Of a DNA stretch of 32,681 nucleotides, positions 2,676 to 30,326 are shown in pieces (the first letter of the stretch is position 1; the number at the start of each line of letters is the position of its first letter). Origin of the DNA: a virus; the IMG/VR virus record IMGVR_UViG_3300043640_000058, positions 1 through 32,681 of that record; one strand, written 5' to 3'. The notes beneath the pieces are model-generated. The model was given only the letters and a program-made list of their open reading frames with translations. It did not search any database and was not told the DNA's origin. A program made the position numbers and the translations under genes.

Positions 2676-3182
2676 ATGAACCCGATCTCTTATGCCCGGA
2701 ATCTTACGGACTTCTCTACTACAGCTCTGGCTAAAAGGCTTGATGTTTCTAGACAATATATTTCCCGTCTTGAACAGGGTCTTTATGACAAGCCTAATAA
2801 AATCTTGCTCGACTGGACTACTGAAGCTCTTAATAGGAGTTTGGCTAAGCCTGTTAATGCTGAGCAAGTAGAACAACTTTATAGGGAGTGGCAGTGGCAA
2901 AAGCGAGAGTCCACTAAAGAATCCAGAGTTCTTTCCCCCTGTAGAGTCACTGATTATGACAAGGTTGCGCAACCGGAAATTATTTATTATCACAAGATTT
3001 TTCGACAGTGGCGCCGAGACTTTTTTGTGTCTCCCCACGAATTTGCTGTAGAACTATGTCTGCATCCGTCTCCTGTAGTTGATTATGAAGACGGTAATAC
3101 TCACAGCATGCCTACTGGTCTTAAGTCTGTTATGAACAGGCTCAATCTCATTGGTGAGGGATTTAAAACTAATGAACGTTAA
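2676..3182 (+). CDS. Double helix-turn-helix (XRE-like) DNA-binding regulator
   Basis: The 168-residue protein has an XRE-type HTH at about residues 8-45, including the recognition stretch TTALAKRLDVSRQYISRLEQG. A second HTH-like unit lies at about 110-160 (VSPHEFAVELCLHPSPVVDYE then MPTGLKSVMNRLNLIGEG). The linker is charged and contains WQWQKRE. Such two-domain XRE proteins act as transcription regulators in phages. It is first in the long rightward block and is probably translated from a leaderless mRNA. It could bind the dispersed CCCCTGTAG sites, one of which (2936-2944) lies inside the gene, but there is no direct evidence. An excisionase-like or replication role is less likely. Confidence 0.75.
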   Translation: MNPISYARNLTDFSTTALAKRLDVSRQYISRLEQGLYDKPNKILLDWTTEALNRSLAKPVNAEQVEQLYREWQWQKRESTKESRVLSPCRVTDYDKVAQPEIIYYHKIFRQWRRDFFVSPHEFAVELCLHPSPVVDYEDGNTHSMPTGLKSVMNRLNLIGEGFKTNER

Positions 3183-3336
3183 ATTTATTAGTAAATGGCT
3201 TATCGCCAGACGTTTTAAAAAGCATAAACATAATCTATATCAGAGTAGTTTTGCTTATGGCTATTTCTGTCTATATCCAGAATGTGACTTCTTTCTTAAG
3301 GCAGAGGATTGTTTTGAAGGAGGATCGGACCAATGA
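3172..3336 (+). CDS. Hypothetical small basic protein, 54 aa
   Basis: The ATG at 3172 overlaps the stop of the HTH gene (ATGAACGTTAA) and follows GGTGAGGG. The N-terminal half is basic (FISKWLIARRFKKHKHN). The C-terminal half has two cysteines in FCLYPECDFF and a third in EDCFEGG, a weak zinc-knuckle pattern. The stop overlaps the start of the small terminase gene as ATGA, so the three genes are probably coupled. A TTG 21 bp upstream is an alternative start. Function is unknown. Confidence 0.6.
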   Translation: MNVKFISKWLIARRFKKHKHNLYQSSFAYGYFCLYPECDFFLKAEDCFEGGSDQ

Positions 3337-4067
3337 CTACAGAGACTAGGAATGTTAAATATCTAGATCCTTGGATTATTGATGCTGTTAATTTCATCGA
3401 ACGGCATCATAGTGTCGCTGGTCAGGTACCCCGTGATGATGATATCATGGAGTATCTAAAGCTTACTAAGAAGCATCAGGGCATTAATTCTGAATCTATT
3501 TCAACTCTTAAAAGCAACGCGATGTTCTTGGCATCTATGGAATCTCGTGGAATTGTTATTAATGTTAATAAAGATGGTGATCTTCGAGAAGTTAATGGTT
3601 TGACTCCTCGACAGACTGCCGCTGCTTCAGTAATGATGAATCTTATTGATCGACGTAGTGATGAAAAGAAGCTGCGCGATATTGGCGTTAGTACTGAAGA
3701 GTTTAGTAACTGGATGCAGAATACTGAGTTCTCTAACTATATGGCTCAGCGTTCTGAACTAATGATTACTAACATGACTCATGAAGCGCATCTAGGTCTA
3801 GCGCGTGGAGTCCGTCAAGGTAACCCATCCAGCATTAAACTCTATTATGAGATGACTGGACGTTATAATCCTAACGAGGAAAATAACGTTAACATCCGAG
3901 TGCTTATTGGTCGTGTACTAGAAGCTATTCAGATGGAAGTTAAAGAGCCTGAAACTCTTAATAAACTAGCTATCAGGCTTAGTCAGATCACACTAGAATC
4001 TGGCACTTCCCCTGTAGGAAATGCACTACCGTTTGTTCCGGGTAATGCAACCAGGAAAGAACTGTAA
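3333..4067 (+). CDS. terS: Terminase small subunit (putative)
   Basis: The small terminase recognises phage DNA and recruits the large subunit for packaging. The 244-residue protein has a helical, HTH-like N-terminal half (WIIDAVNFIERH through the 70s), a linker (NGLTPRQTAAASVMMNLIDR) and a helical region containing NMTHEAHLGLARGV and SIKLYYEMTGRYNP. The last pattern, with bulk residues leading to a TGRYNP-type end, is typical of phage small terminases. A very strong AAGGAGG ribosome site precedes the ATG. One CCCCTGTAG copy lies 50 bp before the stop and encodes SPVGN. Unusually the large subunit is 3.3 kb away, beyond the endolysin and fibre genes. Confidence 0.72.
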   Translation: MTTETRNVKYLDPWIIDAVNFIERHHSVAGQVPRDDDIMEYLKLTKKHQGINSESISTLKSNAMFLASMESRGIVINVNKDGDLREVNGLTPRQTAAASVMMNLIDRRSDEKKLRDIGVSTEEFSNWMQNTEFSNYMAQRSELMITNMTHEAHLGLARGVRQGNPSSIKLYYEMTGRYNPNEENNVNIRVLIGRVLEAIQMEVKEPETLNKLAIRLSQITLESGTSPVGNALPFVPGNATRKEL

Positions 4068-4489
4068 TGGCTGATGACAGTCATACGTTGAAACCTGTTA
4101 AATTTGGTACTGGTTCGCTAGGTAAACGAAGTACTAATAAGACCGACCAATTTGGTCAGCAGTATAGTGCTTCGCAGGATGAATCTAAATGGTCAAATCA
4201 GTCACCAGAAGATTCACGTAAAGCGCATTCACGTTCTGATGTAGATACCGGTCCTAGCGCGCTGCATCATACGATTGGTAATAAGCATAATCAGGCTAGT
4301 CCTGGTGATCATATTCATGAAGGTAAAACTTCTAAGAAACTTGGTCCTATGATGGCTAACCCTGCGTTTAATCCAGCATTGCCAGTATCGAGTAGTAATA
4401 AGCAGTTTATTCCTGAATGGCATGCTCTGCCTACAGGGGCTAGTATTATTGCCCTTCTGCACAATTTTATTGAATTTAGGGATGTATAA
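4067..4489 (+). CDS. Fibre-associated or adhesin-type protein, 140 aa
   Basis: The start overlaps the terminase stop as TAATG. The N-terminal half is polar and disordered (KFGTGSLGKRSTNKTDQFG). The middle has a histidine-rich segment, LHHTIGNKHNQASPGDHIHE, whose HNQASPGDHIHEG pattern recurs in phage tail-fibre and baseplate proteins, where histidine clusters can bind metal. The C-terminus is hydrophobic (ASIIALLHNFIEFRDV). Its position directly before the endolysin and fibre genes fits a virion surface or tail-tip role. A CTACAGGGG copy sits about 50 bp before its stop. Confidence 0.55.
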   Translation: MADDSHTLKPVKFGTGSLGKRSTNKTDQFGQQYSASQDESKWSNQSPEDSRKAHSRSDVDTGPSALHHTIGNKHNQASPGDHIHEGKTSKKLGPMMANPAFNPALPVSSSNKQFIPEWHALPTGASIIALLHNFIEFRDV

Positions 4490-4491
4490 CA

Positions 4492-5304
4492 ATGGCTAAG
4501 CCTATGACAGCTGCTCAGTCAATAGCTATGCTTAAGAAATGGCATATTCCCTATATTGAGCACGGTAGTTGGGAGACTCATAATCGAGGATCCAGAGGTA
4601 ACGGATTTAGTGATATCAATGGTCTAATCGTTCACCACACGGGCTCCAGTGGGTTGGACCAGTGGGAGAGCCTCTACGATGGCACTGCGGCCCTCCCTGG
4701 CCCCCTCTGTCACTGGGGTTTGGACCAGAAGGGGACCATCCATAATATTGGATGGGGCAGATGTAATCATGCTGGTGGTGGAGATCCCGCAGTATTGAAG
4801 CACGTTATTAATGAAGACTATACCGGAGTTCTCCATACTAAATATGGTGAGGGAGATCCGGGAGCGACCGATGGTAATGGTCACTTCTATGGTGTAGAGA
4901 TTTGGTATGATGGTAGTCATGAGATGTCAGATGAACAGTACTTTACGCTTATGCGTCTGAGTGCTGCTATCTGTGACTTTCATAAGTGGTCAGAGAAGTC
5001 TGTTATTGCACACGGCGAATGGAATAATCAGAAGTGGGATCCCGGAGTTTCTAAGGATCACATGATGAATATGTCTGTTGTCCGTGAAGATATTGCTGAG
5101 ACTATTAAGTTGGGACCTGCCATGACTAGCAAGCCTGTAGTTTATAAGGATGTTTGGGAATTCGATGGAGCGGAGCCTCCTACGGGCCATGCCACTCCTG
5201 ATAATCCCACATGGGCAGCTATTAATATTGCTCGTATGTCTGCTGAGTATGCAGAGAAGGCTTTTAAGAACACTGAGGAAATTCTCAAGATTCTGAAGGG
5301 TTAA
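4492..5304 (+). CDS. N-acetylmuramoyl-L-alanine amidase endolysin (Amidase_2)
   Basis: This enzyme cuts the bond between N-acetylmuramic acid and L-alanine of peptidoglycan. The 270-residue protein carries the Amidase_2/PGRP fold from about residue 40 to 205. The zinc site can be read as H48 or H49 (LIVHHTG), H174 (VIAHGEW) and D183 (KWDPG), with E136 (GVEIW) near the catalytic position. The C-terminal about 60 residues include a helix (YAEKAFKNTEEILKILKG) and may aid oligomerisation or wall binding. There is no signal peptide, so export should need a holin. Bases of about 4634-4741 over the active site are much richer in GC and use different codons from the rest, suggesting mosaicism. Confidence 0.88.
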   Translation: MAKPMTAAQSIAMLKKWHIPYIEHGSWETHNRGSRGNGFSDINGLIVHHTGSSGLDQWESLYDGTAALPGPLCHWGLDQKGTIHNIGWGRCNHAGGGDPAVLKHVINEDYTGVLHTKYGEGDPGATDGNGHFYGVEIWYDGSHEMSDEQYFTLMRLSAAICDFHKWSEKSVIAHGEWNNQKWDPGVSKDHMMNMSVVREDIAETIKLGPAMTSKPVVYKDVWEFDGAEPPTGHATPDNPTWAAINIARMSAEYAEKAFKNTEEILKILKG

Positions 5305-5306
5305 CA

Positions 5307-5975
5307 TTGGGAGAGTACACAGATAACCAGAAATTCTACCTGATTGATCCTACAGAACTAGTTTCTGTAGAGAGTGATATTAACTATAATCTGCATCGCG
5401 CGGATAGTCGTGTCCGCTCTCTTATCGAGTATACAACTGTTGATCCTAGTGTTAGCAATATTAGTGTATCTACAACTATTGATAAAGACACTGGTTATAA
5501 ATTCTATAAAGCCTATAGTAACTCTGTTTGGAGTTATGACGGACGTAGTACTCAAGTGCTACAGGACTTTAATAGTATTGTAGACCCTTGGTCAGTCGAA
5601 GGTATTACATTTGAACCTGGGTATGGATCCCCTTCAGCTTTCCCACAAGACCGTATCGCGTATTCAGTCAGAGATAATTTTGTACGCTTGCGCGGCAGGT
5701 TGGTACTTAATGATACTTCTAATGACCTTCCCCTCGCTTCTGTAGAGAATTGTTTTACTCTACCTACTAATATTCTGCCGCTTACTCAGAAGTATTTTTT
5801 CTGTAATGGCGGTAATGCTGCATCTAACCAGTTTCAAACATTCCGTGTGTTTATCCCTCCAAATGACGCTTCAGATAAACGTATTGAATTTATTAAGTAC
5901 GGCGGTAATGCTTCAGGATCAGGAGATAGATATCTATCTCTTGGAGATATTTACTATCCGATAGGAGACATCTAA
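5307..5975 (+). CDS. Tail fibre or receptor-binding protein, 222 aa, TTG start
   Basis: The start is TTG after GAAGGG. The N-terminal 45 residues (NQKFYLIDPTELVSVESDIN followed by YNLHRADSRVRSLIEY) look like a virion-attachment helix shared by phage fibre-type proteins. The rest is strand-rich and low in charge, like the beta-sandwich of minor tail or receptor-binding proteins. It follows the endolysin and precedes two more proteins with fibre-like architecture. An 8-bp inverted repeat of the dispersed motif lies near its 5' end. The exact role and partner are inferred from style and context. Confidence 0.62.
   Translation: MGEYTDNQKFYLIDPTELVSVESDINYNLHRADSRVRSLIEYTTVDPSVSNISVSTTIDKDTGYKFYKAYSNSVWSYDGRSTQVLQDFNSIVDPWSVEGITFEPGYGSPSAFPQDRIAYSVRDNFVRLRGRLVLNDTSNDLPLASVENCFTLPTNILPLTQKYFFCNGGNAASNQFQTFRVFIPPNDASDKRIEFIKYGGNASGSGDRYLSLGDIYYPIGDI
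5350..5370. repeat. Perfect inverted pair CTACAGAA / TTCTGTAG
   Basis: Eight-bp arms (5350-5357 and 5363-5370) flank the 5-bp loop CTAGT, 43 bp into a fibre-type gene. Each arm is a variant of the dispersed CCCCTGTAG element with the C/G run replaced by TTC/GAA. Confidence 0.6.
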
Positions 5976-6121
5976 TGAGTCTTGGACTTCCCCCAGAACC
6001 AGATGAGCCACCTACAGGTCCTTATTATCCCCCTACGGGAGACCCTTTCCCTGTAGAGCAAAATCCCGATCCGTATACTCCTGCGGAGACTCCTAGTTTC
6101 CAGGTTGAAGATGGGAATTAA
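5975..6121 (+). CDS. Proline-rich small protein, 48 aa
   Basis: The start is in a TAATG overlap with the previous stop, and the stop abuts the TTG of the next gene. Of 48 residues about a third are proline, in repeats such as EPPTGPYY, YPPTGDP and DPFPVEQNPD. Several of these are encoded by variants of the CCTACAGG/CCCTGTAG element. Proline-rich linkers are common in virion surface proteins; the role here is unknown. It is too short for default gene calling but the two-sided coupling supports it. Confidence 0.6.
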   Translation: MSLGLPPEPDEPPTGPYYPPTGDPFPVEQNPDPYTPAETPSFQVEDGN

Positions 6122-6751
6122 TTGTCATATTTTGATTTTAATTATGTAACGGATCCACCTGATGATGAACTAGTTAATCCCATTACGCAACTTAATGATA
6201 ACTGGCAAGAAGTTAATGACAAGATTAAACCGTATAATTCTAGACCTAATACGTTGATTAACCCCCCTAAAGGGGCTGAGGCAATCGATGATCAGGGACG
6301 TATTGGTGTTTGGGATGGTACACAGTGGAACTTTTCACTAAATCACGCTGGAACTATTACTAGTTGGCAGACATTTGCTCTAAGAACTGGTGTCCAGGAA
6401 CGCGCTGGATTTACACCGTTGGCTAAGGTGGATACACTTAAAGGTCAAGTTATTCTTACTGGTGCGGTGCAACTGGGTAGTACCGCAACAGCGTGGTCAA
6501 CTACAGCAGCTACAGAAATTACAACTGATACGGCTATTCAAGCAAGCCTTGCCCCTGTTAATGGTGGATTTTCTTATCATCAGTGTGCTACTGGTCAAAA
6601 TACTACTGCTAATGCTTTTGCATCTGCTGTAGTTTGGGCTGAACTTAAAGCTACCCCAACTCCGCATGTTGCTCTTATGGTTAGATATCAGGGTGACGCA
6701 GGTGGAGGTAACTTTGTTCAGCTAGACAATGTTAGATGGTGGTTCCGATGA
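6122..6751 (+). CDS. Tail fibre-type protein, 209 aa, TTG start
   Basis: The start is TTG directly after the previous stop, with GATGGGA as ribosome site. Residues 1-75 include NPITQLNDNWQEVNDKI, typical of the N-terminal attachment helices of fibre proteins, and a linker with GRIGVWDGTQWNF. Residues of about 80-209 are strand-rich and low in charge (TLKGQVILTGAVQLG, VALMVRYQGDAGGGNFVQL), ending in VRWWFR, like a jelly-roll head domain. It is probably a receptor-binding or minor tail protein. Confidence 0.6.
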   Translation: MSYFDFNYVTDPPDDELVNPITQLNDNWQEVNDKIKPYNSRPNTLINPPKGAEAIDDQGRIGVWDGTQWNFSLNHAGTITSWQTFALRTGVQERAGFTPLAKVDTLKGQVILTGAVQLGSTATAWSTTAATEITTDTAIQASLAPVNGGFSYHQCATGQNTTANAFASAVVWAELKATPTPHVALMVRYQGDAGGGNFVQLDNVRWWFR

Positions 6752-7431
6752 GCACACCTAATTATGGATTCTTTCTTCCTACAGGCGAAGATTCCATGTC
6801 AGACGTTAAGAAGAATATTACAGACTCTTTTAAAACAATTGAACCTCGTAATAACATCACAGTAATTCCATCCGGGGGAGTACTCCCTCAGACTGGTGAT
6901 TATAATATTGGGGATCGTATCTTTAGAGATGATCCTCGTTCGGGTTTTGCCAGTGGTCTTTATCCAAGTGTTTATATTTTGATTTGTAAGGATCCTGTTT
7001 GGGGATGGCACTGGAGACCTGTCCAGGCCGTAATTTCTCCCTGGGTTACTATTCCTGCTACTGCTATTAACAACGTATTGTTTGAGCTGCATCCCACATT
7101 TAAATTTCAGATTGCGCTAGATAGTAAGGGTATGTGTTATTGGCGTGGTGCTATCAGATCCAAGGTTGTTGGTATTACACCTAACTCTTCAATGATTATT
7201 TTTAATGATGTTCCCGTAGCACTTCGTGCTGGTTTTGATGTCCTACATAGTGTGGTTCTTAGTCCTGCTACAGGAACTACGGGACGTCCTGGTTATGTAG
7301 GTGGTCGTATGGGTATTAACGCTGATGGTTCAGGATCCTTCAGATTTTTTAATAGCGCGACTGTTGTTCAGAATATTTGGTTCAACGGACTAATGTATCC
7401 AAACTCTCAGAGGCTGTATTATGCCCCATAA
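6748..7431 (+). CDS. Minor tail or fibre-type protein, 227 aa
   Basis: I place the start at the ATG overlapping the previous stop (ATGA), not at the earlier alternative codon. The N-terminus (MSTPNYGFFLPTGEDSMSDV then KKNITDSFKTIE) resembles the short helical anchors of phage minor tail proteins, which often open with a YGF.LPxxGD-like pattern. The rest is strand-rich with glycine-rich turns (GTTGRPGYVGGRMGI) and ends in an aromatic strand. It overlaps the terminase large subunit by 11 bp. It is likely a virion surface protein; the specific role is unknown. Confidence 0.6.
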   Translation: MSTPNYGFFLPTGEDSMSDVKKNITDSFKTIEPRNNITVIPSGGVLPQTGDYNIGDRIFRDDPRSGFASGLYPSVYILICKDPVWGWHWRPVQAVISPWVTIPATAINNVLFELHPTFKFQIALDSKGMCYWRGAIRSKVVGITPNSSMIIFNDVPVALRAGFDVLHSVVLSPATGTTGRPGYVGGRMGINADGSGSFRFFNSATVVQNIWFNGLMYPNSQRLYYAP

Positions 7432-8950
7432 AGAGCGTAAAATTACTTCGCTTGAAGATGCTATTAAAGAGATGTCTGATGGCCTTTCTAGAGTTGCCTA
7501 TGCACCAGATATTAATCTCTACGGTCCTCATCCTAAACAACTCAAATTTCATGGTTCAGAAAAAGACACTCGTCTATATATTGGAGGAAACCGGTCAGGT
7601 AAAACGACCGGAGGTATTGTTGAAGATATCTGGTGGCTGACACATAGACATCCTTACGTTAAAACTCCTTCGCATCCTGTAGCTGGACGTATTGTTTCAG
7701 TCGACTTTCTAAATGGTATTGCCAAAATTATTATTCCGCAGCTTAAGCAGTGGATTCCCCCATCGGAATTGCGTGGGGGATCCTGGTTTACTGCATATGA
7801 TGCTGCTGAACGCACACTTAATTTTGAAAACAAATCATTCGTTGAATTGATGTCTTACGACCAGGATCTTGACAAGTTCGCTGGAACTAGTCGGGACTTT
7901 ATCCACTATGATGAGGAACCTCCTAAGAGTATCTACAGTGAATGTCAGGCACGACTAATTGACCGTAAGGGTCGATCCTGGCTAACTATGACTCCTGTAG
8001 ATGGAATGACTTGGGTTTATGATACTCTTTATGAACCTAGCGTATTGGGTATCAATGTTAATGTTGATGTAGTAGAAGTTGACATGGCAGAGAATCCCCA
8101 TCTTGATAAAGAAGCCATCGATAAGTATTTGGCTAGTCTTGATGAAGATGAACGCAAGGCCCGTGGACATGGTAAGTTTGTTCAAATGGGTGGTCTTGTA
8201 TATAAGGCATTTAAACGAGACACCCATGTGATTGATGTTATTGATCCTAAAGAACTTTCAGGTAAGAATTACAAATGGTATATGTCTCTTGATCACGGTT
8301 TTAACAATCCTACAGCTGTACTATGGCATGCAGTAGATCCAGATAACAAGGTTATTACCTTTGCTGAACATTATGAGTCTGAACAGATTATTGAATATCA
8401 TGCTGAAGTAATTAAGAGTCGTGAAAAAGAGTGGGGTAGGTTGGCAGATATGCGTATCTGTGATCCTGCTCTAGGTCAACGTCAAGCAGTTACGGGAACT
8501 TCTATCCAGACTGAATACGCTATGCGAGGTATCGGTATGGCTATGGGAAATAACAATGTACTAACTGGCGTAGCTAAGGTTAATCAATATTTGAAGCCTG
8601 GCGCGAATAGTATTCCTAACTGGCAAATTACAGCAAACTGTGCTAACCTCATTAAAGAGATACAGCGACTCCGATGGAAGACCTGGGCCTCTAAAAAGCA
8701 ACAAGAGAAGAACAACCCTTATGATGAGATTCATAAAAAAGATGACCATGCTTGCGATTCGAGCAGGTATTTCTTCTCCTTTATGCCAGAGCTTAAGCCG
8801 ATCATTACTGGTCCACCTAGGAACTTGGCAGTTCCTCCGATTGGTGGCAATAGTGCTAAGCGTATTGATCTACCTAATATTGATCCTAATCTAACGCCCG
8901 CTGCACTTAGCAAGAAGACAGAATGGAAAGTAGTTCTTAACGATGACTGA
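7421..8950 (+). CDS. terL: Terminase large subunit
   Basis: This is the packaging motor: an N-terminal ATPase and a C-terminal RNase H-like nuclease. In the 509 residues the Walker A motif is GGNRSGKTT (55-63) and the Walker B motif is DFIHYDEE (159-166), with the second E as catalytic glutamate. Candidate nuclease acidic residues are D291 (SLDHG), D348 (RICDPALG) and D441/D445 (KDDHACDSSRYF). Length is normal for the family. It overlaps the preceding fibre gene by 11 bp and the next gene by 8 bp. The separated small subunit is the gene at 3333. Confidence 0.95.
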   Translation: MPHKERKITSLEDAIKEMSDGLSRVAYAPDINLYGPHPKQLKFHGSEKDTRLYIGGNRSGKTTGGIVEDIWWLTHRHPYVKTPSHPVAGRIVSVDFLNGIAKIIIPQLKQWIPPSELRGGSWFTAYDAAERTLNFENKSFVELMSYDQDLDKFAGTSRDFIHYDEEPPKSIYSECQARLIDRKGRSWLTMTPVDGMTWVYDTLYEPSVLGINVNVDVVEVDMAENPHLDKEAIDKYLASLDEDERKARGHGKFVQMGGLVYKAFKRDTHVIDVIDPKELSGKNYKWYMSLDHGFNNPTAVLWHAVDPDNKVITFAEHYESEQIIEYHAEVIKSREKEWGRLADMRICDPALGQRQAVTGTSIQTEYAMRGIGMAMGNNNVLTGVAKVNQYLKPGANSIPNWQITANCANLIKEIQRLRWKTWASKKQQEKNNPYDEIHKKDDHACDSSRYFFSFMPELKPIITGPPRNLAVPPIGGNSAKRIDLPNIDPNLTPAALSKKTEWKVVLNDD

Positions 8951-9236
8951 TATTGATGATGTTTATAGAGAACGTCAGCATCTAGTATCTAATCTTAGTG
9001 CTAAGCATCCATCAGGTCTAGTATCTAGTGTAGATGAAGATGGTGTTACTTGGCCTATTGTTTATATTGAACTTCCTACAGGTCAGGTTTCATGGCATAT
9101 CAGTGATGTTGATCTAGATTTGTTTAGTCATGTACCTTATCGAGATATTAAATGGGACGGCCATAATACTTCTGAAAAGTATCGCCGCCTAGATGCGTAT
9201 ACCCAGTCTCTTGTGAAGGAGAATAATAATGACTGA
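8943..9236 (+). CDS. Hypothetical protein, 97 aa
   Basis: The ATG overlaps the terminase stop in the 8-nt unit ATGACTGA, and its own stop does the same with the next gene. The protein has a strand-rich middle (VTWPIVYIELPTGQVSWHI) and a conserved-looking end with KWDGHNTSEKYRRLDAY. I recall this WDGH..EKYRRL pattern from uncharacterised actinophage proteins, but no function. It sits between terminase and portal among other small acidic genes. Confidence 0.65.
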   Translation: MTDIDDVYRERQHLVSNLSAKHPSGLVSSVDEDGVTWPIVYIELPTGQVSWHISDVDLDLFSHVPYRDIKWDGHNTSEKYRRLDAYTQSLVKENNND

Positions 9237-9501
9237 CCTTGACCCGGAAATTTGGAATACCCCGAATCTCGGATCTGCTTCACCTGTCCCGTTTATGGAT
9301 GAGGTAGAGGCTCAGCGCGTTGAAGACTATGATGCTCGTCTTAATAACCGAGAGCCACTTATTGCTAGGCGTGCTCCCGAAGATCGTGCTCCTCATTTCA
9401 TGGAGCCGCATACTGTTCCGTCATCGGTAGATATTAAGGTTAATCTTACGGACCCGAATGCTCCGGAAGAGTTTGATTTTGATTCGAAGGACTATGAGTA
9501 A
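9229..9501 (+). CDS. Hypothetical acidic protein, 90 aa, DYE tail
   Basis: The protein is acidic and mostly disordered-looking, with many prolines (RRAPEDRAPHFMEPHTVPSS) and no cysteines. It ends in FDFDSKDYE, very like the end of the next protein (VFDASDYE). It is coupled on both sides (ATGACTGA, TAATG). The shared acidic tail suggests a common partner or docking site. Function is unknown. Confidence 0.6.
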   Translation: MTDLDPEIWNTPNLGSASPVPFMDEVEAQRVEDYDARLNNREPLIARRAPEDRAPHFMEPHTVPSSVDIKVNLTDPNAPEEFDFDSKDYE

Positions 9502-9980
9502 TGGAAACGTCTCCACAAGCACGTATCCAAATTATTAACACAGCTATCCTTGCTCCTGGTATTTGTATTGTTTGTGGTAGTGCTGGTACGGAAGATAGAG
9601 AATTTCTAGATTTCGGTAAGCAGCTCGACTGGTATGGCGCGGTTTATCTCTGCACTCTTTGTGTTCCTGAGATGGCTACAGCTTGCGATTTTATCCCTGG
9701 TAATAGCTTTCACAAGCTATACGATGAGCATCGCAAGCTACAGATTAGTTATGATCAACTTTCATCTGAACATGTGAAGGTTAAAGATGCTTTGGGTAGT
9801 CTACTTGTTGGCACTGCTGGTACTATCGTTGACAATAACGGGACTACTTTTCCTGTTGTGGAAGAGTCAGACAGCACTAATGAGTCTAACGAATCGTCAA
9901 CAGTCGGAGATTCAGAGACTGACGAATCTACTGTCATCGAAGGACCTGATGACGTATTCGACGCTTCAGACTACGAATAA
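9501..9980 (+). CDS. Zinc-finger coiled-coil protein with acidic tail, 159 aa
   Basis: Residues 20-60 hold two CxxC knuckles, C22/C25 (CIVCG) and C51/C54 (CTLC), consistent with one zinc ion. Residues of about 72-95 form a short coiled coil (LYDEHRKLQISYDQLSSEHV). The last about 45 residues are serine- and acid-rich and end in VFDASDYE, matching the tail of the previous gene product. No enzyme motif is seen. Position between terminase and portal suggests a head-assembly or packaging accessory, which is inference. Confidence 0.65.
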   Translation: METSPQARIQIINTAILAPGICIVCGSAGTEDREFLDFGKQLDWYGAVYLCTLCVPEMATACDFIPGNSFHKLYDEHRKLQISYDQLSSEHVKVKDALGSLLVGTAGTIVDNNGTTFPVVEESDSTNESNESSTVGDSETDESTVIEGPDDVFDASDYE

Positions 9981-10149: not shown

Positions 10150-10161
10150 GAAAGGGGGATA

Positions 10162-19181: not shown

Positions 19182-19186
19182 GGTAG

Positions 19187-21002: not shown

Positions 21003-21007
21003 TTAAA

Positions 21008-24000: not shown

Positions 24001-25204
24001 CGATAAGGTGCTAAGTAAGTGGAAGGCAGGCGTAACTATTTACGTCCCGTCCCACCATATTCGTAATATGATTGGCGATGTCTATTTTAACTGGCTAGGT
24101 GGAGTTAACTCAACACGAGCCTATGGGACAGCATTTAAGGTTATGCAGTCCCAGAGGGGTCGTTATGAGGGACTGGCCGAGCTTGACAATCTCACTAACC
24201 CCAAAGCTATTCAGCGCGCTATGTCTGGTAGTTCTTCTAATGCAGTCGGTAAGCAGACTGCTCTTACTATGCGCAATGGTACTCACGTTACTAATGACAT
24301 GGTTTACGTAAGTGCATTTCAGCATGGTATTCTTCCGAGTACACGAGTATTGGAGGATATTCCAGATGACGTTGCCTCAGGAATTGATAAATTCAGGCCC
24401 CTCGGAGGTAGAGCACAAAAAGCTGCCCACACGCTATCTGAAGGACGAGACCATTACGTACGACTCGCACATTATGTTGATGTTCTTAAGAAGTCTGGAA
24501 AATCATTTGAAGCAGCTACAGAAGAAGCGGCAGGAGTAGTTCGTAAGTGGCATCCAGATGGTATGGATCTCACTAAATTTGAACGCAACGTTGTGCGCCG
24601 TATGTTTCCATTCTATAGTTGGACTCGCAAGGCTCTTCCCCTTATTATTGAATCTTTGGTAGCCACACCAGGTAAGGTAATGGCATATCCTAAGGCTGAA
24701 TATCTACTTCAGCAGATGATGGGCATTCAAACTGGACCTATGTCAGATCCATTTCCTTATGATCAACTATTTCCAGATTGGATTAGGGAAAAGGGCATTG
24801 GTCCTACTATGGGTGGCCCCGGAGATTATACGGTAGCCAACCCTAGTAACCCTACTCTAGATCTAATTGCACAGCTTAATCATCCTGGACGTATGGGTAT
24901 GGGAATGCTTAATCCTGCTGCTCGTATTCCTATTGAGCTGTCTACAGGGGTAGATGCACAGACAGGTGCCCCTATTGATGGTCTGGATCCTGACTATATT
25001 GCTAAACAGATTCCAGGAGTTAGCCACGTTGGACGCATTAGTGGTGAATTTGGAGTATCTGATACCACTAAGGAAAATTCTTCAGGATTCAACGCACAAA
25101 ATATTTTCAACCTACTAACTGCGTTGAATGTACAAAATACTGGACCATATCAAAAGAGCGCAGAGTTTGATATGCGCGACTACCTTAAGCAACAGAGAGG
25201 TTAG
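21008..25204 (+). CDS. Large internal virion / ejection protein, 1398 aa
   Basis: The largest gene in the window. In short-tailed phages the place after the nozzle and ejection genes is that of large internal proteins that form the transenvelope channel. It has no recognisable enzyme motif. The N-terminal third is glycine/valine-rich with hydrophobic segments (IGQVIGGVVTGTGRGIGTGF), and the C-terminal half is helical (KWKAGVTIYVPSHHIRNMIG, VRRMFPFYSWTRKALPLIIE). Several dispersed-motif copies fall in it (21051, 21870, 22128, 22254, 24942). About 23461-23580 is GC-rich with altered codons. A tape-measure role is unlikely because no long-tail genes are present. Confidence 0.72.
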   Translation: MLEGYKPIDFSGVFPPVDLGQVRNKVGLSQAAIGILANSQFSQTPISSLLGQGLTSKGEVPKRKQTLFGRAVDLLSTPSYLVANATDDAIAGHQSHDSDSILADIGQVIGGVVTGTGRGIGTGFRGAFAGSETAADPQDKIYLGDSLIRLDTHMSAEEAKKPENLEAVRSKLMGKKINQFDDSDENKYFYDFDKKKVEVTDDDIEDYFKHMGVYGVAASAVSDPLNFVKGPTGILSGVKGAAEVPEAATAVNKASDVLAPLNTGTGISSVDLSALGKKPNGSYKVSFPTGAVQNAVAAPSSITPIVPKALELNQVDPLDSILGGWSAGSKTIDKVGDSLAPVGKVPDEQIAIANKLSAPDAIGKLTGDLLRKAATGEMSGLIGHLANKYPGVDFSQTSKLVEHIAKIPDFAKRLGSPVERKKIVGAFHRTIRADAEAMKIAPPVKSAGTLINDASKVDPVNLQRLVQGAKPGQIVSKNPVRDTAMADATVAKFEGQILGNQYPAGIRDKVAYDRSVSAGRTARYSGSQQVQMWNHITHIMKDIKSPNRFAVANNILRKVEDSFIAKGAKPVNGVRTVDSVPLRLSQVLDAIGPAAAAMNPTLLTKILRGDPTALKGLPTEVIQRIEAFKAGEALVDSSSVVAGVNAASKNIDDITKGPLSAGRTDEAVTIGSRVAQDITRAAGGSPVAGNQAAKYIKDSYAPKSPIDSAIRAAHINTTALISHPSVGASQIMRYGNGPAITRAINKVIGGPRLAVLGTKVGEPAAVVEWLGARFNAAYKNADMRPIYLKQAATAKSTVARRAQYLNNLAKQFNVNDLDLWNGALKGAQGLQEPIVGSPEALLSREILTVMENLFGSSGLKSSVALENSVVGRSQLFMDELNKNLRRFGLGDYQFTKKGKYKTGTEWLNSWESWDVKRPMEFLFKMQNVVEHTTREKLMFDEIAGRFGNYTRSGVFTHTVSHPRLAGAYFGKEAAEQINQFTRNLKDIAKPNSKQMQMFDKVLSKWKAGVTIYVPSHHIRNMIGDVYFNWLGGVNSTRAYGTAFKVMQSQRGRYEGLAELDNLTNPKAIQRAMSGSSSNAVGKQTALTMRNGTHVTNDMVYVSAFQHGILPSTRVLEDIPDDVASGIDKFRPLGGRAQKAAHTLSEGRDHYVRLAHYVDVLKKSGKSFEAATEEAAGVVRKWHPDGMDLTKFERNVVRRMFPFYSWTRKALPLIIESLVATPGKVMAYPKAEYLLQQMMGIQTGPMSDPFPYDQLFPDWIREKGIGPTMGGPGDYTVANPSNPTLDLIAQLNHPGRMGMGMLNPAARIPIELSTGVDAQTGAPIDGLDPDYIAKQIPGVSHVGRISGEFGVSDTTKENSSGFNAQNIFNLLTALNVQNTGPYQKSAEFDMRDYLKQQRG

Positions 25205-25206
25205 TC

Positions 25207-26082
25207 ATGGCAGTAGCTGATTTTCTTGATACCTATCAAAATGCTATGGCTAACAAGAAAATTGTTAACCCTCTTTCGTCTTCTAATACACGTAACCTTT
25301 CCAGTCCAAAATTGGGCAGTCCAACTAGAGCTATTAATCCGCTACCTGCTGCACAATCTAATAGCTTCGGTACCAGTGTTCCCGGTCTACTAGATACACG
25401 TACTAGTGGTGCACTGGATCGTTATATGCAGTCTAAGTCTGCAAATACTACTGACCTGGCTGCACAATATACCGATAAAGCAGCCGGCATTATTCCGACA
25501 GATAAATACGGTATCGTACAGAATAAAACTACGCCATTTAATGATGCTTTTAATAGTCAGCTTGGTGCTATTGATGCCAAAGGTAAGTCTGCTCTAGCTA
25601 CATCAGAAGCACAAGCATCCTGGCAGCAACAACAGCAACAGCTAGAGCAAAATGCAGGGTTCCAAATTAACTGGACTCCTGGTGCTTCTAGTGGTAATGC
25701 TGGTGCAAAAGCCGTCAGCATGGCTATGTCTGCTTACAATAATCACACCCCTTATGTTTGGGGTGGAAATTCCCTTAGTGGGGGAGTAGACTGTAGTGGA
25801 CTAGTACAACAGATTTACAAGAAGCTGGGAATTAGTCTTCCTCGCAGTACTTATGAACAGGCTAAGGCCGGTAAGACTGTTAGTCTCGGAAGTCTACAAG
25901 CTGGAGACCTGGTATTTTATAATACTGGAAGTAAGGATCCTAACGGGATCGGTAGCCTTAGTCACGTGGCTATTTATATCGGTAATGGTCAGGTTATTAG
26001 CGCGTTGAATACTAAGTCCGGTATTAAAATTCAGCCACTTAATAATAATGGCGGGGCAGTTAAGGCGGTTAGACCATGGTAG
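25207..26082 (+). CDS. NlpC/P60 cell-wall peptidase, virion-associated, 291 aa
   Basis: NlpC/P60 enzymes cut peptidoglycan stem peptides. The domain spans about residues 165-291, with the catalytic cysteine C196 in DCSGL, the histidine H253 in LSHVAIYIG, and the usual PYVWGGNSLSGGVDCSG lead-in. The N-terminal 160 residues are low-complexity and disordered with a glutamine run (SWQQQQQQLEQNAGF). The disordered part and position in the tail block suggest a virion enzyme for DNA entry rather than release. It overlaps the next hydrolase by 7 bp. Confidence 0.88.
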   Translation: MAVADFLDTYQNAMANKKIVNPLSSSNTRNLSSPKLGSPTRAINPLPAAQSNSFGTSVPGLLDTRTSGALDRYMQSKSANTTDLAAQYTDKAAGIIPTDKYGIVQNKTTPFNDAFNSQLGAIDAKGKSALATSEAQASWQQQQQQLEQNAGFQINWTPGASSGNAGAKAVSMAMSAYNNHTPYVWGGNSLSGGVDCSGLVQQIYKKLGISLPRSTYEQAKAGKTVSLGSLQAGDLVFYNTGSKDPNGIGSLSHVAIYIGNGQVISALNTKSGIKIQPLNNNGGAVKAVRPW

Positions 26083-26621
26083 GACCAGCTGATAGTAACC
26101 TTCCGGGATTTCTCAGTGAGCTAAACAATATCACGAGTAAAGGTAACTATCAGGTCGCTGCTAAACTAAACCCTGTTAAACCTAAGACTATTAACCTGGG
26201 AATGCCTTCTCTACAGGGGGTAGGTGGAGGTTCTACTGGTAGTGCAGTTGGTGACCTAGCTAAACTTATGAAGGCTATTAAGTCTCAGGAATCTAATAAC
26301 AATTACAGTGCAACTAACCCATCCGGTGCTTCAGGTGGTTATCAAATTCTTCAAAGTAATTTTGTTAATCCTGGTGGTTGGGATAAAGAAGCTCTAGGTC
26401 GTGATATTTCTTATAATGAGTTTATGGGTAGCCCTCAACTTCAGGATCAAATTGCTCAGTATAAACTAGGTCAGTATCTAAAGAAGTATGGCGCAGCAGG
26501 AGCAGCAGCGGCATGGTATGGTGGAGAAGGTTCTGTAAAAAATATGTACTCTACGACCACTCAGACCGGTGGTTATCCTAGTATGTATGCTTACTGGACA
26601 TCCGTACTAAGTAAGATGTAG
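26076..26621 (+). CDS. Lytic transglycosylase-like (lysozyme-fold) protein, 181 aa
   Basis: Residues of about 65-180 fit a transglycosylase-like or lysozyme-fold domain: a helix with the likely catalytic glutamate in IKSQESNNNYSAT, then SGASGGYQILQSNF and a C-terminal AAAAWYGGEGSVKNMY pattern. The N-terminal 60 residues are linker-like. It would cut glycan strands, complementing the NlpC/P60 peptidase encoded just before. The start (ATG in ATGGTAG) overlaps the previous stop. The fold call is from motif style and is not a confirmed family hit. Confidence 0.75.
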   Translation: MVGPADSNLPGFLSELNNITSKGNYQVAAKLNPVKPKTINLGMPSLQGVGGGSTGSAVGDLAKLMKAIKSQESNNNYSATNPSGASGGYQILQSNFVNPGGWDKEALGRDISYNEFMGSPQLQDQIAQYKLGQYLKKYGAAGAAAAWYGGEGSVKNMYSTTTQTGGYPSMYAYWTSVLSKM

Positions 26622-26627
26622 AGGGAT

Positions 26628-26873
26628 ATGCACGATGGTGATGACCTGGATATTCCCGAAAGTAATAGGGAAATTGCTCTACATCTGAAAGCTATTCGAC
26701 TTGACCAAACGGGAATCAGGGGGGAGTGTTCTCACCTTAATTCTCGTCTTGATGCTCTTGAGACAACGATTGAACAACGTAGATACAAGTTCCAAGATGT
26801 CTTGCTCGGATCCTTGCTGTTGCCTCTCGTGGGTGGTATCCTTCTATTCCTACTCACAAAAGCTCTAGGTTAG
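26628..26873 (+). CDS. Coiled-coil membrane protein, holin-like, 81 aa
   Basis: The N-terminal 50 residues form an amphipathic charged coiled coil (AIRLDQTGIRGECSHLNSRL then DALETTIEQRR), and the last about 24 form one membrane helix (VLLGSLLLPLVGGILLFLLT). This layout, coiled coil then C-terminal helix, is known in XhlA-type holin-associated proteins and tail-anchored proteins. It ends the virion-enzyme block. It could act with the 55-aa protein at 20835 to release the amidase. Function is inferred from architecture. Confidence 0.68.
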   Translation: MHDGDDLDIPESNREIALHLKAIRLDQTGIRGECSHLNSRLDALETTIEQRRYKFQDVLLGSLLLPLVGGILLFLLTKALG

Positions 26874-26875
26874 CT

Positions 26876-26916
26876 TCTAAGCGATTCTTAGAGTGCACAA
26901 GGCGGGGGGTTCCGCC
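26876..26916 (+). promoter_or_regulatory. Leader of the WhiB gene with two hairpins, one over the ribosome site
   Basis: An inverted repeat TCTAAG-CGATT-CTTAGA lies at 26876-26892. A second, GGCGG-GGGGTT-CCGCC, lies at 26901-26916 and ends one base before the ATG. Its G-run is the only ribosome-site candidate, so the second hairpin could hide or present it. No promoter is obvious here. This is a possible translational control element. Confidence 0.5.
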
Positions 26917-26917
26917 C

Positions 26918-27229
26918 ATGACTGATACTACAAATGACGGGGTGTCTTTGTGGCAACAGCGAGCGCTTTGCGTTAATCAACCGTCATCTATTTTCTTTGT
27001 TGATGAAAACAAAGATAACCGACCAAGCAGTAAGACCGAATACAAGCGATTCTGTGATTCTTGCCCTGTAGAACAGGAATGTCTTGAATATGGAATCGTG
27101 TACAACATGTCTGGAGTTTGGGGCGGAACTACAGACAAGGAACGGCACAAGTTTACAGCCGTTAGTGTTAGTATGCTTAGGGACGACTACATCGAGTCTG
27201 GATTGTTTAATCCAGTTCTCAAAGTCTAG
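26918..27229 (+). CDS. WhiB-family iron-sulfur transcription regulator
   Basis: Wbl proteins bind a [4Fe-4S] cluster with four cysteines and act with the host sigma factor. They are specific to actinobacteria and their phages. The cysteines C18, C46, C49 and C55 (FCDSCPVEQEC) match the C-x(n)-C-x2-C-x5-C pattern, and GVWGGTT (66-72) is the family turn. Residues 74-77 (KERH) and after supply a short basic tail. At 103 residues it is a typical length. It is the last rightward gene before the bidirectional terminator, and CCCTGTAG encodes its CPVEQ. It may alter host transcription late in infection. Confidence 0.93.
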   Translation: MTDTTNDGVSLWQQRALCVNQPSSIFFVDENKDNRPSSKTEYKRFCDSCPVEQECLEYGIVYNMSGVWGGTTDKERHKFTAVSVSMLRDDYIESGLFNPVLKV

Positions 27230-27238
27230 ACAATGCGA

Positions 27239-27274
27239 AAACCCCCGGTGGCCAATAGAGGCTACCGGGGGTTT
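27239..27274. terminator. Bidirectional terminator between converging blocks
   Basis: Arms 27239-27253 and 27260-27274 (AAACCCCCGGTGGCC and GGCTACCGGGGGTTT) pair over 15 bp with one G-U and a 6-nt loop. T-rich or A-rich flanks on both sides (CTTT on the plus strand, TTTT on the minus strand) suit both directions. It separates WhiB, read rightward, from the leftward replication genes. Confidence 0.92.
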
Positions 27275-27290
27275 CTTTATGCCTATTTAG

Positions 27291-27488
27291 TTATTCTACA
27301 GAAGGCGCCTTCTCTGGAACAATAAGCGGCATCTGCTCCCAGATATAGGCATTACCATCGCGACTTACTGTGATTTTTGATACGTCTACGATATTACCCT
27401 CCCGAAGCAATAGCATTACTCTGGGGTCGTTATCACCAGCCTCTTTTACTCTTTCGGCCATCTGCATAAACAATTCACTCAGCTTCAT
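27291..27488 (-). CDS. Hypothetical protein, 65 aa, paralogue-like to its neighbour
   Basis: The ATG follows AGGA at good spacing and overlaps the stop of the next leftward gene by 14 bp. The protein is helical then strand-rich (MKLSELFMQMAERVKEAGDN, then VDVSKITVSRDGNAYIWEQM). It shares the layout GD-x-DP-x-V...GNAYI with the next gene (GDVDPYVIV...GVAYI). No function is recognised. Confidence 0.6.
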   Translation of the reverse strand: MKLSELFMQMAERVKEAGDNDPRVMLLLREGNIVDVSKITVSRDGNAYIWEQMPLIVPEKAPSVE

Positions 27489-27690
27489 TTTTAGTCCTAC
27501 ACGTAATCGCTACGAGTTTTTTCGAAATTATATAAGCAACGCCATCAATATTAGCTTTAATTCCCCCTGTAGAAATATTATTTACAATTACATATGGATC
27601 AACATCACCAAAAACTTGCTGGGTTGCTAGCAATTGTCGAATTAGTTCTGTTAATTTAATTGGAAGTGGATAAGGTTCCCTATCACTCAT
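27475..27690 (-). CDS. Hypothetical protein, 71 aa, paralogue-like to its neighbour
   Basis: I start at the ATG at 27690, which overlaps the upstream stop in ATGAGTGA and follows AGAGAG, rather than at a longer frame. It has the same two-part layout as the 65-aa protein: a helical N-terminal part (LPIKLTELIRQLLATQQVFG) and DPYVIVNNISTGGIKANIDG then VAYI. A CTACAGGGG copy (27564-27572 on the plus strand) encodes STGG. Function is unknown. Confidence 0.58.
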   Translation of the reverse strand: MSDREPYPLPIKLTELIRQLLATQQVFGDVDPYVIVNNISTGGIKANIDGVAYIISKKLVAITCRTKNEAE

Positions 27691-28135
27691 CAGAATCTCT
27701 CTGTTCTGGAAGTTCTGTAAACATGTTCCCTGACTCAATCAGTGCGGCCGTAGCAGAAGGTCCAATAATCTTTGGAACTAGACCCTTACCCTTAACATTC
27801 CAACGAGCAGCATCGGACTGTCGAGCAAAGTTCCAGATAATACCTAGGTCAGCTAGTGCCCAAGCTCTGCATTCTTCTGAGCAGTACTTAACCTTGTGGT
27901 AACTGAAGAGAAAATGATTATCACATCGTTGACACTTTTTAGCACTGAAACCCTTACCACGAGTCTCAACATAAAACAGAACAGATTCAGCTTCTAGATT
28001 ATGCCTAATAGCTGCATCTGCACCAATTTCAGTCTGCGGAACCTCCTCTAGTAGCGCATCGATATCCATACCCAGTGTAGCAGCGAGCTTAGTAATTCGA
28101 TCAATCTCGTTTTGCCGCGCTGTTTTCTTAGCCAT
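27683..28135 (-). CDS. Zinc-finger protein, 150 aa
   Basis: Residues 66-92 hold C68-x2-C71 (CQRC) and C85-x3-C89 (CSEEC), a four-cysteine zinc site within KKCQRCDNHFLFSYHKVKYC. An N-terminal charged helix (ARQNEIDRITKLAATLGMDI) and a C-terminal helical part (LGIIWNFARQSDAARWNVKG) flank it. It probably binds nucleic acid in the replication block, but no exact family is recognised. The stop overlaps the next ATG by 8 bp. Confidence 0.65.
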   Translation of the reverse strand: MAKKTARQNEIDRITKLAATLGMDIDALLEEVPQTEIGADAAIRHNLEAESVLFYVETRGKGFSAKKCQRCDNHFLFSYHKVKYCSEECRAWALADLGIIWNFARQSDAARWNVKGKGLVPKIIGPSATAALIESGNMFTELPEQRDSDE

Positions 28136-28146
28136 GTTAGTTCCCG

Positions 28147-28596
28147 CTACTCAAAGATCGGATGCTTGCGCAATTTAAGGTCGATAAGTCTATGGACACC
28201 ATGTGCATAAGCAGAAATATCATCCGGACAGTGCCAACTACGAGGTTTTCTAGCTAGCTCAGGATAACCAGCCCATTTAAGAGCACCTCTGAGATTCCCT
28301 GGCTTCTGTAGGAAAATCATAGATCGTTCGCCTAGCAGGGTACTAATCATTTCAACTGCACCGATACATCGCGATGCAGGCATATCAGATCCAGTTTGAG
28401 CGATTGCCATATCTTGTCTAAGACTGTAATCCTCCATGATGAATCTCATCCTCTCATCTTGTGGAAGAGCAGCGAGAACCATCTTAAGAAAACTTCTAAA
28501 ATTTTCAAGCCTCATTATAGACTTATTGATATCACTACCATCTTCTCTAAAGGTAGCGACACCAACATTTTCACCTGGATCTACAGAGATGAACAA
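28147..28596 (-). CDS. RuvC-like Holliday junction resolvase
   Basis: An RNase H-fold nuclease that would resolve branched DNA before packaging. In the 149 residues the catalytic acids can be read as D6 (SVDPGENVGV), E55 (IMEDYS), and D125/D126 with H133 (PDDISAYAHGVHRL), the usual order of RuvC-type enzymes. The start is TTG with AGAAGGA 12 bases upstream; no better start is in frame. It lies among the DNA polymerase genes, supporting a recombination role. Family identity within RuvC-like proteins is not certain. Confidence 0.85.
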   Translation of the reverse strand: MFISVDPGENVGVATFREDGSDINKSIMRLENFRSFLKMVLAALPQDERMRFIMEDYSLRQDMAIAQTGSDMPASRCIGAVEMISTLLGERSMIFLQKPGNLRGALKWAGYPELARKPRSWHCPDDISAYAHGVHRLIDLKLRKHPIFE

Positions 28597-28613
28597 CTGG
28601 TTCTCAAGTCCTT

Positions 28614-28874
28614 CTATGGGAATGGCAATGGTGAGTTATCAGGATTGAAGATTCCTTCGTCTCCTGGAGGTGGGTCTACCGCCCTAACATTAGCAATATC
28701 AGTTACAAAAAATCCCATACCATAATCAAAATGAACCATTCGACCTACAGTTTTTTCAGTCTTACTCTCATAGGGAGGATCAATTTTAACAACCCATCCT
28801 GAACCACCATCCCCATTATCGTAAGTAATATCTACATACTTCCCTACGAGTTGGTCTAGATCTTTAAATTGCAT
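28614..28874 (-). CDS. Hypothetical strand-rich protein, 86 aa
   Basis: The protein is short and strand-rich with several G-D turns (KYVDITYDNGDGGSGWVVKI and MVHFDYGMGFFVTD), suggesting a small beta-barrel such as an SH3-like fold, and ends in a proline-rich tail (DEGIFNPDNSPLPFP). No function is recognised. It lies between the resolvase and a small helical gene. Confidence 0.6.
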   Translation of the reverse strand: MQFKDLDQLVGKYVDITYDNGDGGSGWVVKIDPPYESKTEKTVGRMVHFDYGMGFFVTDIANVRAVDPPPGDEGIFNPDNSPLPFP

Positions 28875-28876
28875 CT

Positions 28877-29125
28877 TTAAGCCTCATCACTTCTAGGAGT
28901 GGGACCAGGACAGCTATCATAATCACTCGTATAGAATTCTTTTTCAGTTCTGGTATACTTTTCGCGATTACCGTCAAAGGTTGCCATCCATACTTCAGTT
29001 TCAGCAGATTCTGACATTAGAAAATCTCTTGTAATTCTAAGAATCCCCAAACTACGCATATCTGCTACCAAGTTATTAATCATCTCTTCAGTAGCTTCAT
29101 CAAGTTTCTTACGCGGCTTCGACAT
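28877..29125 (-). CDS. Hypothetical protein, 82 aa
   Basis: The start is ATG at 29125, overlapping the polymerase end by 17 bp and preceded by GGGGGAAAG; a longer frame upstream lies inside the polymerase. The N-terminal half is charged and helical (KKLDEATEEMINNLVADMRS), and the second half includes EVWMATFDGNREKYTRTEKE. No family is recognised. Confidence 0.6.
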   Translation of the reverse strand: MSKPRKKLDEATEEMINNLVADMRSLGILRITRDFLMSESAETEVWMATFDGNREKYTRTEKEFYTSDYDSCPGPTPRSDEA

Positions 29126-30326
29126 AATCTTTCCCCCACAACTCTTCTTCCACATCAAATGGAAGACCGAAATCAATCTCAGCTTGTACATTACTCATAG
29201 TCTCTTTGATAAGCTTGATGTACTGATCAAGATACTTACGCTTAACCTCGAAGATTACTGAGTCATGTACCATAAGAAGCATACGACAATCAACGCTGTC
29301 TACAGTAGTAAAGAGTCGAATCATAGCACTCTTTACAATTTCAGCTAGTCCCCCCTGTAGGATAGAGTTGAAGGCAATTCGAGCACCGTCAACCTTAGTG
29401 TGTCTAATACGACCAGACCATAGGTGAACATAGCCGCGCTGCTGTGCTTTTTGCTGTGCAGCTTTTGAGAACGCTACAATACGATCGTGGTAAGCTTCCC
29501 AGTCCGTGATAAACGAGTCGGGATCATCGCCACCCAGAATTAGTGCTAGCTTTTTACGCTGCGCACCATACATCTTGGCATATGTAAGAGTCTTACACTG
29601 CTTCTTAGGCCGTCCAAGAGCAGCTGTCATCTCTTCCCACATACTACGACCACTAGTAAAGGTATCAATAAGATTCTGTTGTTTTGCATAACCAGCTGCT
29701 AGACGCATTTCACCCTGTGAAAAGTCAGCCTGGACTAGTACATAATCGTCATCTTCGGCTACGAAAGTTTTCTTAATATTACGATTCCATGGCTTAGCAG
29801 TTTCCTTAGGTACCTGCTGTAGATTAGGATCGTGACAACTAACACGACTAGTTTTAGTACCATGAAGCCAGTATTCACAACGTAGGCGCCCATCAGGACT
29901 CAACATGCTTACAAATTTCTCATAACACAGTCCTAGAGTAATACCCCAGCCTCTATATTCAAGAATATTTTGAGCTACCGTACCCCATTGACCTGTCGTA
30001 TACTTAGGATTATTAGCCAGGATAAGTTCATAATCAGCCATAGCTTCTTTATCAAAACTAGGCTTCCCACTCTGTTCACTGACCTTGAGTACTGGCAACC
30101 CCATTTCCTTAAGGAGGAGGGTGTTTAGATCCTTATTAGATCGAGGATTATAGCCATTCAACTCTCTTCTGAGTTGATTCATACGGCCCTTACCTACAGC
30201 AATCTCCTGTAGAGCAAGCTCTTTATTGATGCGAATTCCTCGGCCTTCCATAGCTTGGAAAACCTCAACGTTCTGCATCTCCCGATCCCATAGATTCGGG
30301 ATTGGGCTTTGGAACTTCACCACCAC
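29109..30326 (-). CDS. polA: DNA polymerase I, family A polymerase domain only, 405 aa
   Basis: This replicates phage DNA. The family A palm motifs are clear: motif A with D201 (VQADFSQGEMRLAA), motif B with KKQCKTLTYAKMYGAQ at 241-256, and motif C with H354-D355 (LMVHDSVIFEV). The template-binding stretch GTKTSRVSCHDPNLQQVP at 156-173 is typical. The exonuclease domain normally fused in front is absent here; it is encoded by a separate gene at 30575. The start is one of three adjacent GTG codons. The gene overlaps the upstream zinc-ribbon gene by 62 bp. A CTACAGGGG-type element (29352-29360) encodes the conserved LQGG. Confidence 0.93.
   Translation of the reverse strand: MVVKFQSPIPNLWDREMQNVEVFQAMEGRGIRINKELALQEIAVGKGRMNQLRRELNGYNPRSNKDLNTLLLKEMGLPVLKVSEQSGKPSFDKEAMADYELILANNPKYTTGQWGTVAQNILEYRGWGITLGLCYEKFVSMLSPDGRLRCEYWLHGTKTSRVSCHDPNLQQVPKETAKPWNRNIKKTFVAEDDDYVLVQADFSQGEMRLAAGYAKQQNLIDTFTSGRSMWEEMTAALGRPKKQCKTLTYAKMYGAQRKKLALILGGDDPDSFITDWEAYHDRIVAFSKAAQQKAQQRGYVHLWSGRIRHTKVDGARIAFNSILQGGLAEIVKSAMIRLFTTVDSVDCRMLLMVHDSVIFEVKRKYLDQYIKLIKETMSNVQAEIDFGLPFDVEEELWGKDYVEAA

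Follow-up and report, generated by a model that had tools for sequence, protein, structure and literature searches.

The studied enzymes of the archaeo-eukaryotic primase (AEP) type begin their primers one base 5' of a GTG on the template strand. The helix bundle of the pRN1 primase reads GTG in the template 5'-CTGTGCTCA-3', and the first nucleotide, ATP, is placed opposite the T that lies 5' of GTG (PMC11009956). GTG also stands at the proposed start of the RSF1010 ssi sites (PMC4434180), and the NrS-1 primase-polymerase makes use of GTGG and GTGA, with the sites 5'-TTTGGTTA-3' and 5'-GTGG-3' (PMC8718748). In a 2025 paper, 5'-GTG-3' is named as the strong site of such enzymes (PMC12205980). 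Here we describe a short DNA word, CTGTAG, and its extended form, CCCCTGTAG, which are repeated throughout the 32.7-kb virus record IMGVR_UViG_3300043640_000058 (32,681 nucleotides, analysed at full length and called the window below). We argue that this word is very probably the template recognition and initiation site of a phage AEP primase of the RepB'/Prim-Pol type, which is linked through a helix bundle to a RecA-like helicase.

A first-pass annotation of the window had counted 17 exact copies of CCCCTGTAG in both orientations, and all of them were found, 9 on the + strand and 8 on the - strand, between positions 2936 and 29360. Dinucleotide shuffles gave a mean of 0.17 copies and a maximum of 1. 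In the codon-preserving shuffles that the annotation had proposed as a control (1000 in all), the mean was 2.65 and the maximum 7, and none reached 17. The copies are located as follows:

2936..2944, + strand, exact copy of CCCCTGTAG
4009..4017, + strand, exact copy of CCCCTGTAG
4431..4439, - strand, exact copy of CCCCTGTAG
9992..10000, + strand, exact copy of CCCCTGTAG
10544..10552, - strand, exact copy of CCCCTGTAG
15248..15256, - strand, exact copy of CCCCTGTAG
16520..16528, + strand, exact copy of CCCCTGTAG
18045..18053, + strand, exact copy of CCCCTGTAG
18500..18508, - strand, exact copy of CCCCTGTAG
21051..21059, + strand, exact copy of CCCCTGTAG
21870..21878, - strand, exact copy of CCCCTGTAG
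22128..22136, - strand, exact copy of CCCCTGTAG
22254..22262, + strand, exact copy of CCCCTGTAG
24942..24950, - strand, exact copy of CCCCTGTAG
26211..26219, - strand, exact copy of CCCCTGTAG
27564..27572, + strand, exact copy of CCCCTGTAG
29352..29360, + strand, exact copy of CCCCTGTAG
35..30212, both strands, overall span of the 85 CTGTAG copies, including the 17 exact 9-mers

Mismatch analysis showed that CTGTAG is the invariant part of the signal and that CCCCTGTAG represents the best copies of a looser, broader one. The core occurs 85 times, 42 on the + strand and 43 on the - strand, while codon-preserving shuffles gave a mean of 42.4 and a maximum of 61, with 0 of 1000 reaching 85; CCTGTAG is present in 43 copies. 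Pyrimidines precede the core, the three positions closest to it being mostly C or T, and on its 3' side purines are weakly preferred. The near-palindrome TTCCC-TGTA-GGGAA seen in the first-pass annotation proved weak, as its 3' GGGAA is no general feature of the sites or of the relatives. Of the 17 exact copies, 15 fall within predicted genes, as do 78 of the 85 CTGTAG copies; these 78 run with the gene in 37 cases and against it in 41. The annotation's view that this is not a one-strand RNA signal holds, the word being a genome-wide and strand-symmetric feature of the DNA.

The comparison set comprised about 45 other phages. A megablast of the window against phages returned no match, while a search with TerL identified 62 related loci; the cultured relatives are the Arthrobacter podovirus Jasmine, Cellulosimicrobium phage DS1, and Microbacterium phage Shocker. 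Most TerL relatives carry a genome-wide word based on CTGT (CTGTAGA, CTGTAGC, CTGTAGG, CTGTAGCG, or CTGTCGCG), and in cultured phages the words are CTGTGG (Jasmine and Adat), CTGTCG (DS1), and CTGTAAAG (Shocker). Shocker (L073) also has 48 copies of CCTGTCG, and its genome contains a second dispersed word, TACCCTAA, in 15 copies versus 0.04 expected, which is unrelated to the putative priming word. When the window was aligned with four relatives, 34-44% of aligned sites were in place versus 14-15% for average hexamers, and with a fifth the values were 17% versus 13%. In four of the five comparisons, retention of the window's sites was thus 2-3 times that of average hexamers, a pattern of conservation plus turnover. 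One group of relatives near 50% GC, whose TerL identity is roughly 63-71%, had no CTGT-type word, and the richness of this motif-less group in CAATTG was weak under an order-2 Markov model.

The 10 motif-less relatives carry homologous TerL, portal, and capsid genes. Gene-family profile searches were performed on 24 motif-bearing and 10 motif-less contigs, 8 of the latter covering the replication region, and polymerase A and a small zinc-finger protein were the two families found in bearers of the word but not in the contigs lacking it. The primase-helicase measures about 600 residues in motif bearers and about 380 residues in the motif-less group, from which the N-terminal primase part is gone. 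The 8 motif-less contigs that cover the replication region retain the RecA-like helicase, Holliday-junction resolvase, AAA, exonuclease, and SNF2-type helicase families, but are without the AEP half, polymerase A, and the zinc finger. Motif-less podophages (G003, G004, G005, G007, G009, G011, G021, and G024; e.g., L078-L080) have lost, or never had, these three components, and their replication is apparently host-dependent. No other detected family was common to all carriers of the word yet missing from the motif-less relatives, besides the primase part and polymerase A. The limits of the primase-helicase domains in the window were set by alignment to a complete relative, G012 (L082:9929-11725):

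31152..32681, - strand, primase-helicase gene, truncated at its 5' end by the contig boundary; proposed to read the motif
about 32330-32681, - strand, AEP primase part of the primase-helicase (FDG, S..H.YW, and RP..NHK motifs)
about 32046-32330, - strand, helix bundle of the primase-helicase
about 31152-32045, - strand, RecA-like helicase part of the primase-helicase

The association extends to phages that share little else with the window. Single primase queries for related loci returned 3 and 1 loci, and tblastn hits to the primase-helicase came from numerous phages that infect Gordonia, Mycobacterium, Serratia, Pseudomonas, and Microbacterium. We analysed 12 genomes found by tblastn, which belong to Gordonia, Mycobacterium, Serratia, Pseudomonas, Microbacterium, and Arthrobacter phages or are uncultured; their portal, capsid, and zinc finger are unrelated to those of the window, and TerL similarity was seen in only two. 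When all 2080 hexamers were ranked under an order-2 Markov model, GTGTGG (GTGTGC in Amigo) was 1st in 8 of these genomes, 3rd-5th in 3, and 18th in 1. The best ranks of the word family were 52-725 in the motif-less podophages and 55-259 in T7, lambda, TM4, CapnMurica, and PrincessTrina. Genomes with the helicase but no AEP part had no word, whereas an AEP part with no detected helicase homologue was still accompanied by it, at rank 1 in Amigo and, as CTGTGG, at rank 23 in Brevundimonas phage Polewnik. Altogether, the word reached z of at least 4 in 29 of 30 AEP carriers versus 0 of 16 non-carriers, although these genomes are related and any P value is only indicative.

The AEP catalytic motifs FDG, S..H.YW, and RP..N were invariant or near-invariant across 11-14 sequences. 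For residues 1-300 of G012, the complete relative, an alignment with 10 homologues, one of them the truncated copy of the window, yielded a confident AlphaFold model with a predicted local distance difference test (pLDDT) value of 87.5. The model matched RSF1010 RepB' (3h20, E 1.7e-10), RepB' with initiator DNA (3h25), and cyanophage S-2L PrimPol (6zp9), while the match to NrS-1 (6a9w) was weak (E 0.08). Judging from the model, the primase has an AEP fold of the RepB'/Prim-Pol type. Five helices lie at residues 217-299 of the model, C-terminal to the catalytic domain, the arrangement also seen in RepB' and pRN1. The top structural match is full-length RepB', its bundle included, but the two structures superpose poorly overall (root-mean-square deviation 19.6) and placement of the bundle relative to the catalytic domain is uncertain. 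Among the profiles, the homologue in Muddy exceeds the Pfam RepB_primase cut-off (4.7e-11), and the podophage clade falls below the profile cut-off (RepB_primase 0.03-0.14; Prim-Pol 0.002 for Jasmine).

The words of the different phages have a common layout, [C/G]-T-GT-N-[G/C], in which T is the preferred or near-preferred base at position -1 in most of the genomes examined, and every one of them favours C or G at position -2. Since this layout is shared with the known GTG sites of AEP enzymes, we read the word of the window as a priming site, T|GTAG. On the template strand 5'-CCCC-T|GTAG-R-3', the helix bundle and the catalytic domain would grip GTAG, the first primer nucleotide, A, would pair with the T immediately 5' of GTAG, and the pyrimidine run would template a purine-rich primer, 5'-AGGGG.... 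The high density of sites on both strands would let primers start on either one at intervals of a few hundred to about 2,000 bases, and the recognition sequence would drift between lineages (from GTGG to GTAG, GTCG, and GTAAAG) along with the entire set of sites. Even spacing would be expected of priming sites, and per-strand spacing was more even than that of similarly abundant hexamers on both strands of Triscuit (coefficient of variation 0.31), Neferthena, Cozz, Eleri, Azira, and Adat, and on one strand of Muddy, BigChungus, and PMBT14. More broadly, it is probable that a large phage family maintains a genome-wide priming repertoire on both strands for its own AEP primase, such that a change of specificity leads to rewriting of the genome, loss of the domain leads to decay of the word, and the word itself reveals the specificity of the enzyme.

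Several observations weigh against a priming site. Spacing was no more even than chance in the window and its nearest relatives, and likewise in Serbin and Lebethron. Everywhere, the two strands carry roughly equal numbers of sites, which does not fit a simple lagging-strand polarity of one fork; given this symmetry along the genome, both strands would need priming, or forks would run both ways. The known enzymes require GTG while the window phage has GTAG, so that a change of specificity must be assumed, and the enrichment reaches beyond the recognised triplet. One carrier, G023, fails the hexamer test, although its octamer CCCTGTAG is enriched (15 versus 0.9). In addition, carrier and non-carrier genomes are related, so that their counts are non-independent, the word family was defined post hoc from inspected data, and co-variation of the motif with the primase sequence was no stronger than with capsid or portal (Spearman, 14 genomes).

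Other explanations must be weighed against these data. The genes of other candidate readers in the window are:

2676-3182, helix-turn-helix (HTH) protein
26918-27229, WhiB
27683..28135, - strand, small zinc-finger protein, which follows the motif within the podophage clade
29109..30326, - strand, DNA polymerase A (Pfam DNA_pol_A 7.3e-54)

An artefact of codon usage or composition, to which the 42 CTGTAG copies still yielded by codon-preserving shuffles might point, has next to no probability and is already refuted for this window, as neither 85 CTGTAG nor 17 CCCCTGTAG was reached in any of 1000 shuffles (maxima 61 and 7) and neither strand is richer in the word than the other. Words imprinted by the host, such as Chi, KOPS, HIP1, or DNA-uptake sequences, are likewise dispersed, asymmetric, and drifting between bacterial species. 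However, GTGTGG is common to AEP phages whose hosts belong to different phyla, and the word is absent from CapnMurica and PrincessTrina (Arthrobacter ATCC 21022) and from TM4, D29, and Bxb1 (mycobacteria), phages of the same or related hosts. On the evidence of these phage genomes, a host origin is highly improbable. The first-pass annotation correctly took the word for a genome-wide, strand-symmetric DNA signal, but its suggestion that the HTH protein or WhiB binds it is disfavored: the HTH family was found in all 10 motif-less relatives, and the WhiB family is present in motif-less relatives as well. Binding by either protein as a repressor or elongation-blocking factor, in the manner of cluster A stoperators, would account for many dispersed, asymmetric sites, and more than twenty such sites are indeed found in cluster A phages (PMC9283540). 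Stoperators, however, differ in sequence, are bound by the repressor, lie at promoters and in short intergenic spaces, and follow transcription in their orientation (PMC9283540), whereas the sites of the window are nearly all intragenic and randomly oriented relative to genes. They are also distinct, as the annotation had stated, from the start-associated sequences of cluster K, which lie just upstream of start codons, while those of the window are within genes on both strands. A repressor would leave unexplained why Serratia, Pseudomonas, and Mycobacterium phages carry this word family too, and neither it nor a packaging site, also proposed earlier, explains why the word tracks the AEP/helix-bundle domain into phages with unrelated virion genes and hosts. 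We consider repressor sites very unlikely, though a little less so than a host word.

The word could alternatively serve a different replication-module protein inherited along with the primase, such as polymerase A, a single-stranded DNA-binding protein, or a nucleoid-type protein, and among the genomes compared here polymerase A and the AEP part are in fact lost or kept as a pair. Against this, T7, D29, Bxb1, and KSY1 have polymerase A without AEP and had no word, none of the 12 unrelated motif-bearing phages has the zinc finger, which is hence not required for the motif, and only AEP primases offer a match to the known GTG template site. The nucleoid-type protein suggested by the annotation is disfavored by family co-occurrence only, among the families detected. 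A different reader from the replication module is unlikely, but less so than the other alternatives.

The window also encodes TerL, a P22/SU10-type portal, SU10-like capsid and adaptor proteins, and a Holliday junction resolvase-like protein, and no tRNAs were found in it. Polymerase A is split (29109-31207, - strand) into an exonuclease open reading frame (ORF) and a polymerase ORF, with a small ORF at 30265-30591 between them; it is also split in some relatives, and in others the gene is fused. The remaining part is:

30575..31207, - strand, 3'-5' exonuclease part of polymerase A, as its own ORF

The zinc-finger protein (27683-28135) is conserved and of unassigned function, with the pattern C-x2-C ... 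YCS..CR..AL...GI.W, and in Jasmine and Adat its gene overlaps an annotated whiB on the opposite strand. In these two phages (L071 and L144), each end of the genome bears annotated genes for Lsr2-like nucleoid proteins, in Jasmine inside the terminal repeat.

The start sites of replicative primases in vivo are rarely visible from sequence, and here they may be readable from phage genomes. Jasmine, Muddy, Cozz, Shocker, and Serbin, which carry the word, are in culture, so that the specificity of the primase, how it evolves, and Okazaki-type spacing can be tested directly. If the word is a priming site, this would account for one type of dispersed phage repeat otherwise attributed to repressors and would offer a cheap prediction of specificity for uncharacterised AEP primases. 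Short AEP template sites were already known from test-tube work, whereas a genome-wide repertoire that drifts with the primase is apparently new: no report of genome-wide enrichment of AEP priming sites was found in the open-access literature, although absence there is no proof, and a survey of Microbacterium phages including Triscuit, Eleri, and Neferthena describes other repeats, without CCACAC or GTGTGG.

Among known systems, T7 gp4 is likewise a primase-helicase with short template sites, but its primase is of the DnaG type and unrelated to AEP. GGGTC, one of its known sites, was mildly enriched in T7 (L207 and L208; 94 versus 57 under the order-2 Markov model), much more weakly than the words described here. 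NrS-1 is closer in that its enzyme is a phage AEP and its GTGG (PMC8718748) also forms the word core of Jasmine, Muddy, and the Gordonia phages; it differs in its weak structural match, and genome-wide enrichment of its sites is not known to have been described. RSF1010 RepB', with ssiA and ssiB, shares the fold (3h20 and 3h25) and the GTG at the proposed start, but has one 40-nt hairpin site per strand where the phages have dozens of short sites per strand (PMC4434180). The likeness to pRN1 ORF904 includes the C-T-GT-N layout, the first primer base opposite T, and the combination of AEP and helix bundle (PMC11009956). In contrast to pRN1, whose site is known from oligonucleotide templates, the phages have the variants GTAG, GTCG, and GTAAAG, and their site is multiplied throughout the genome.

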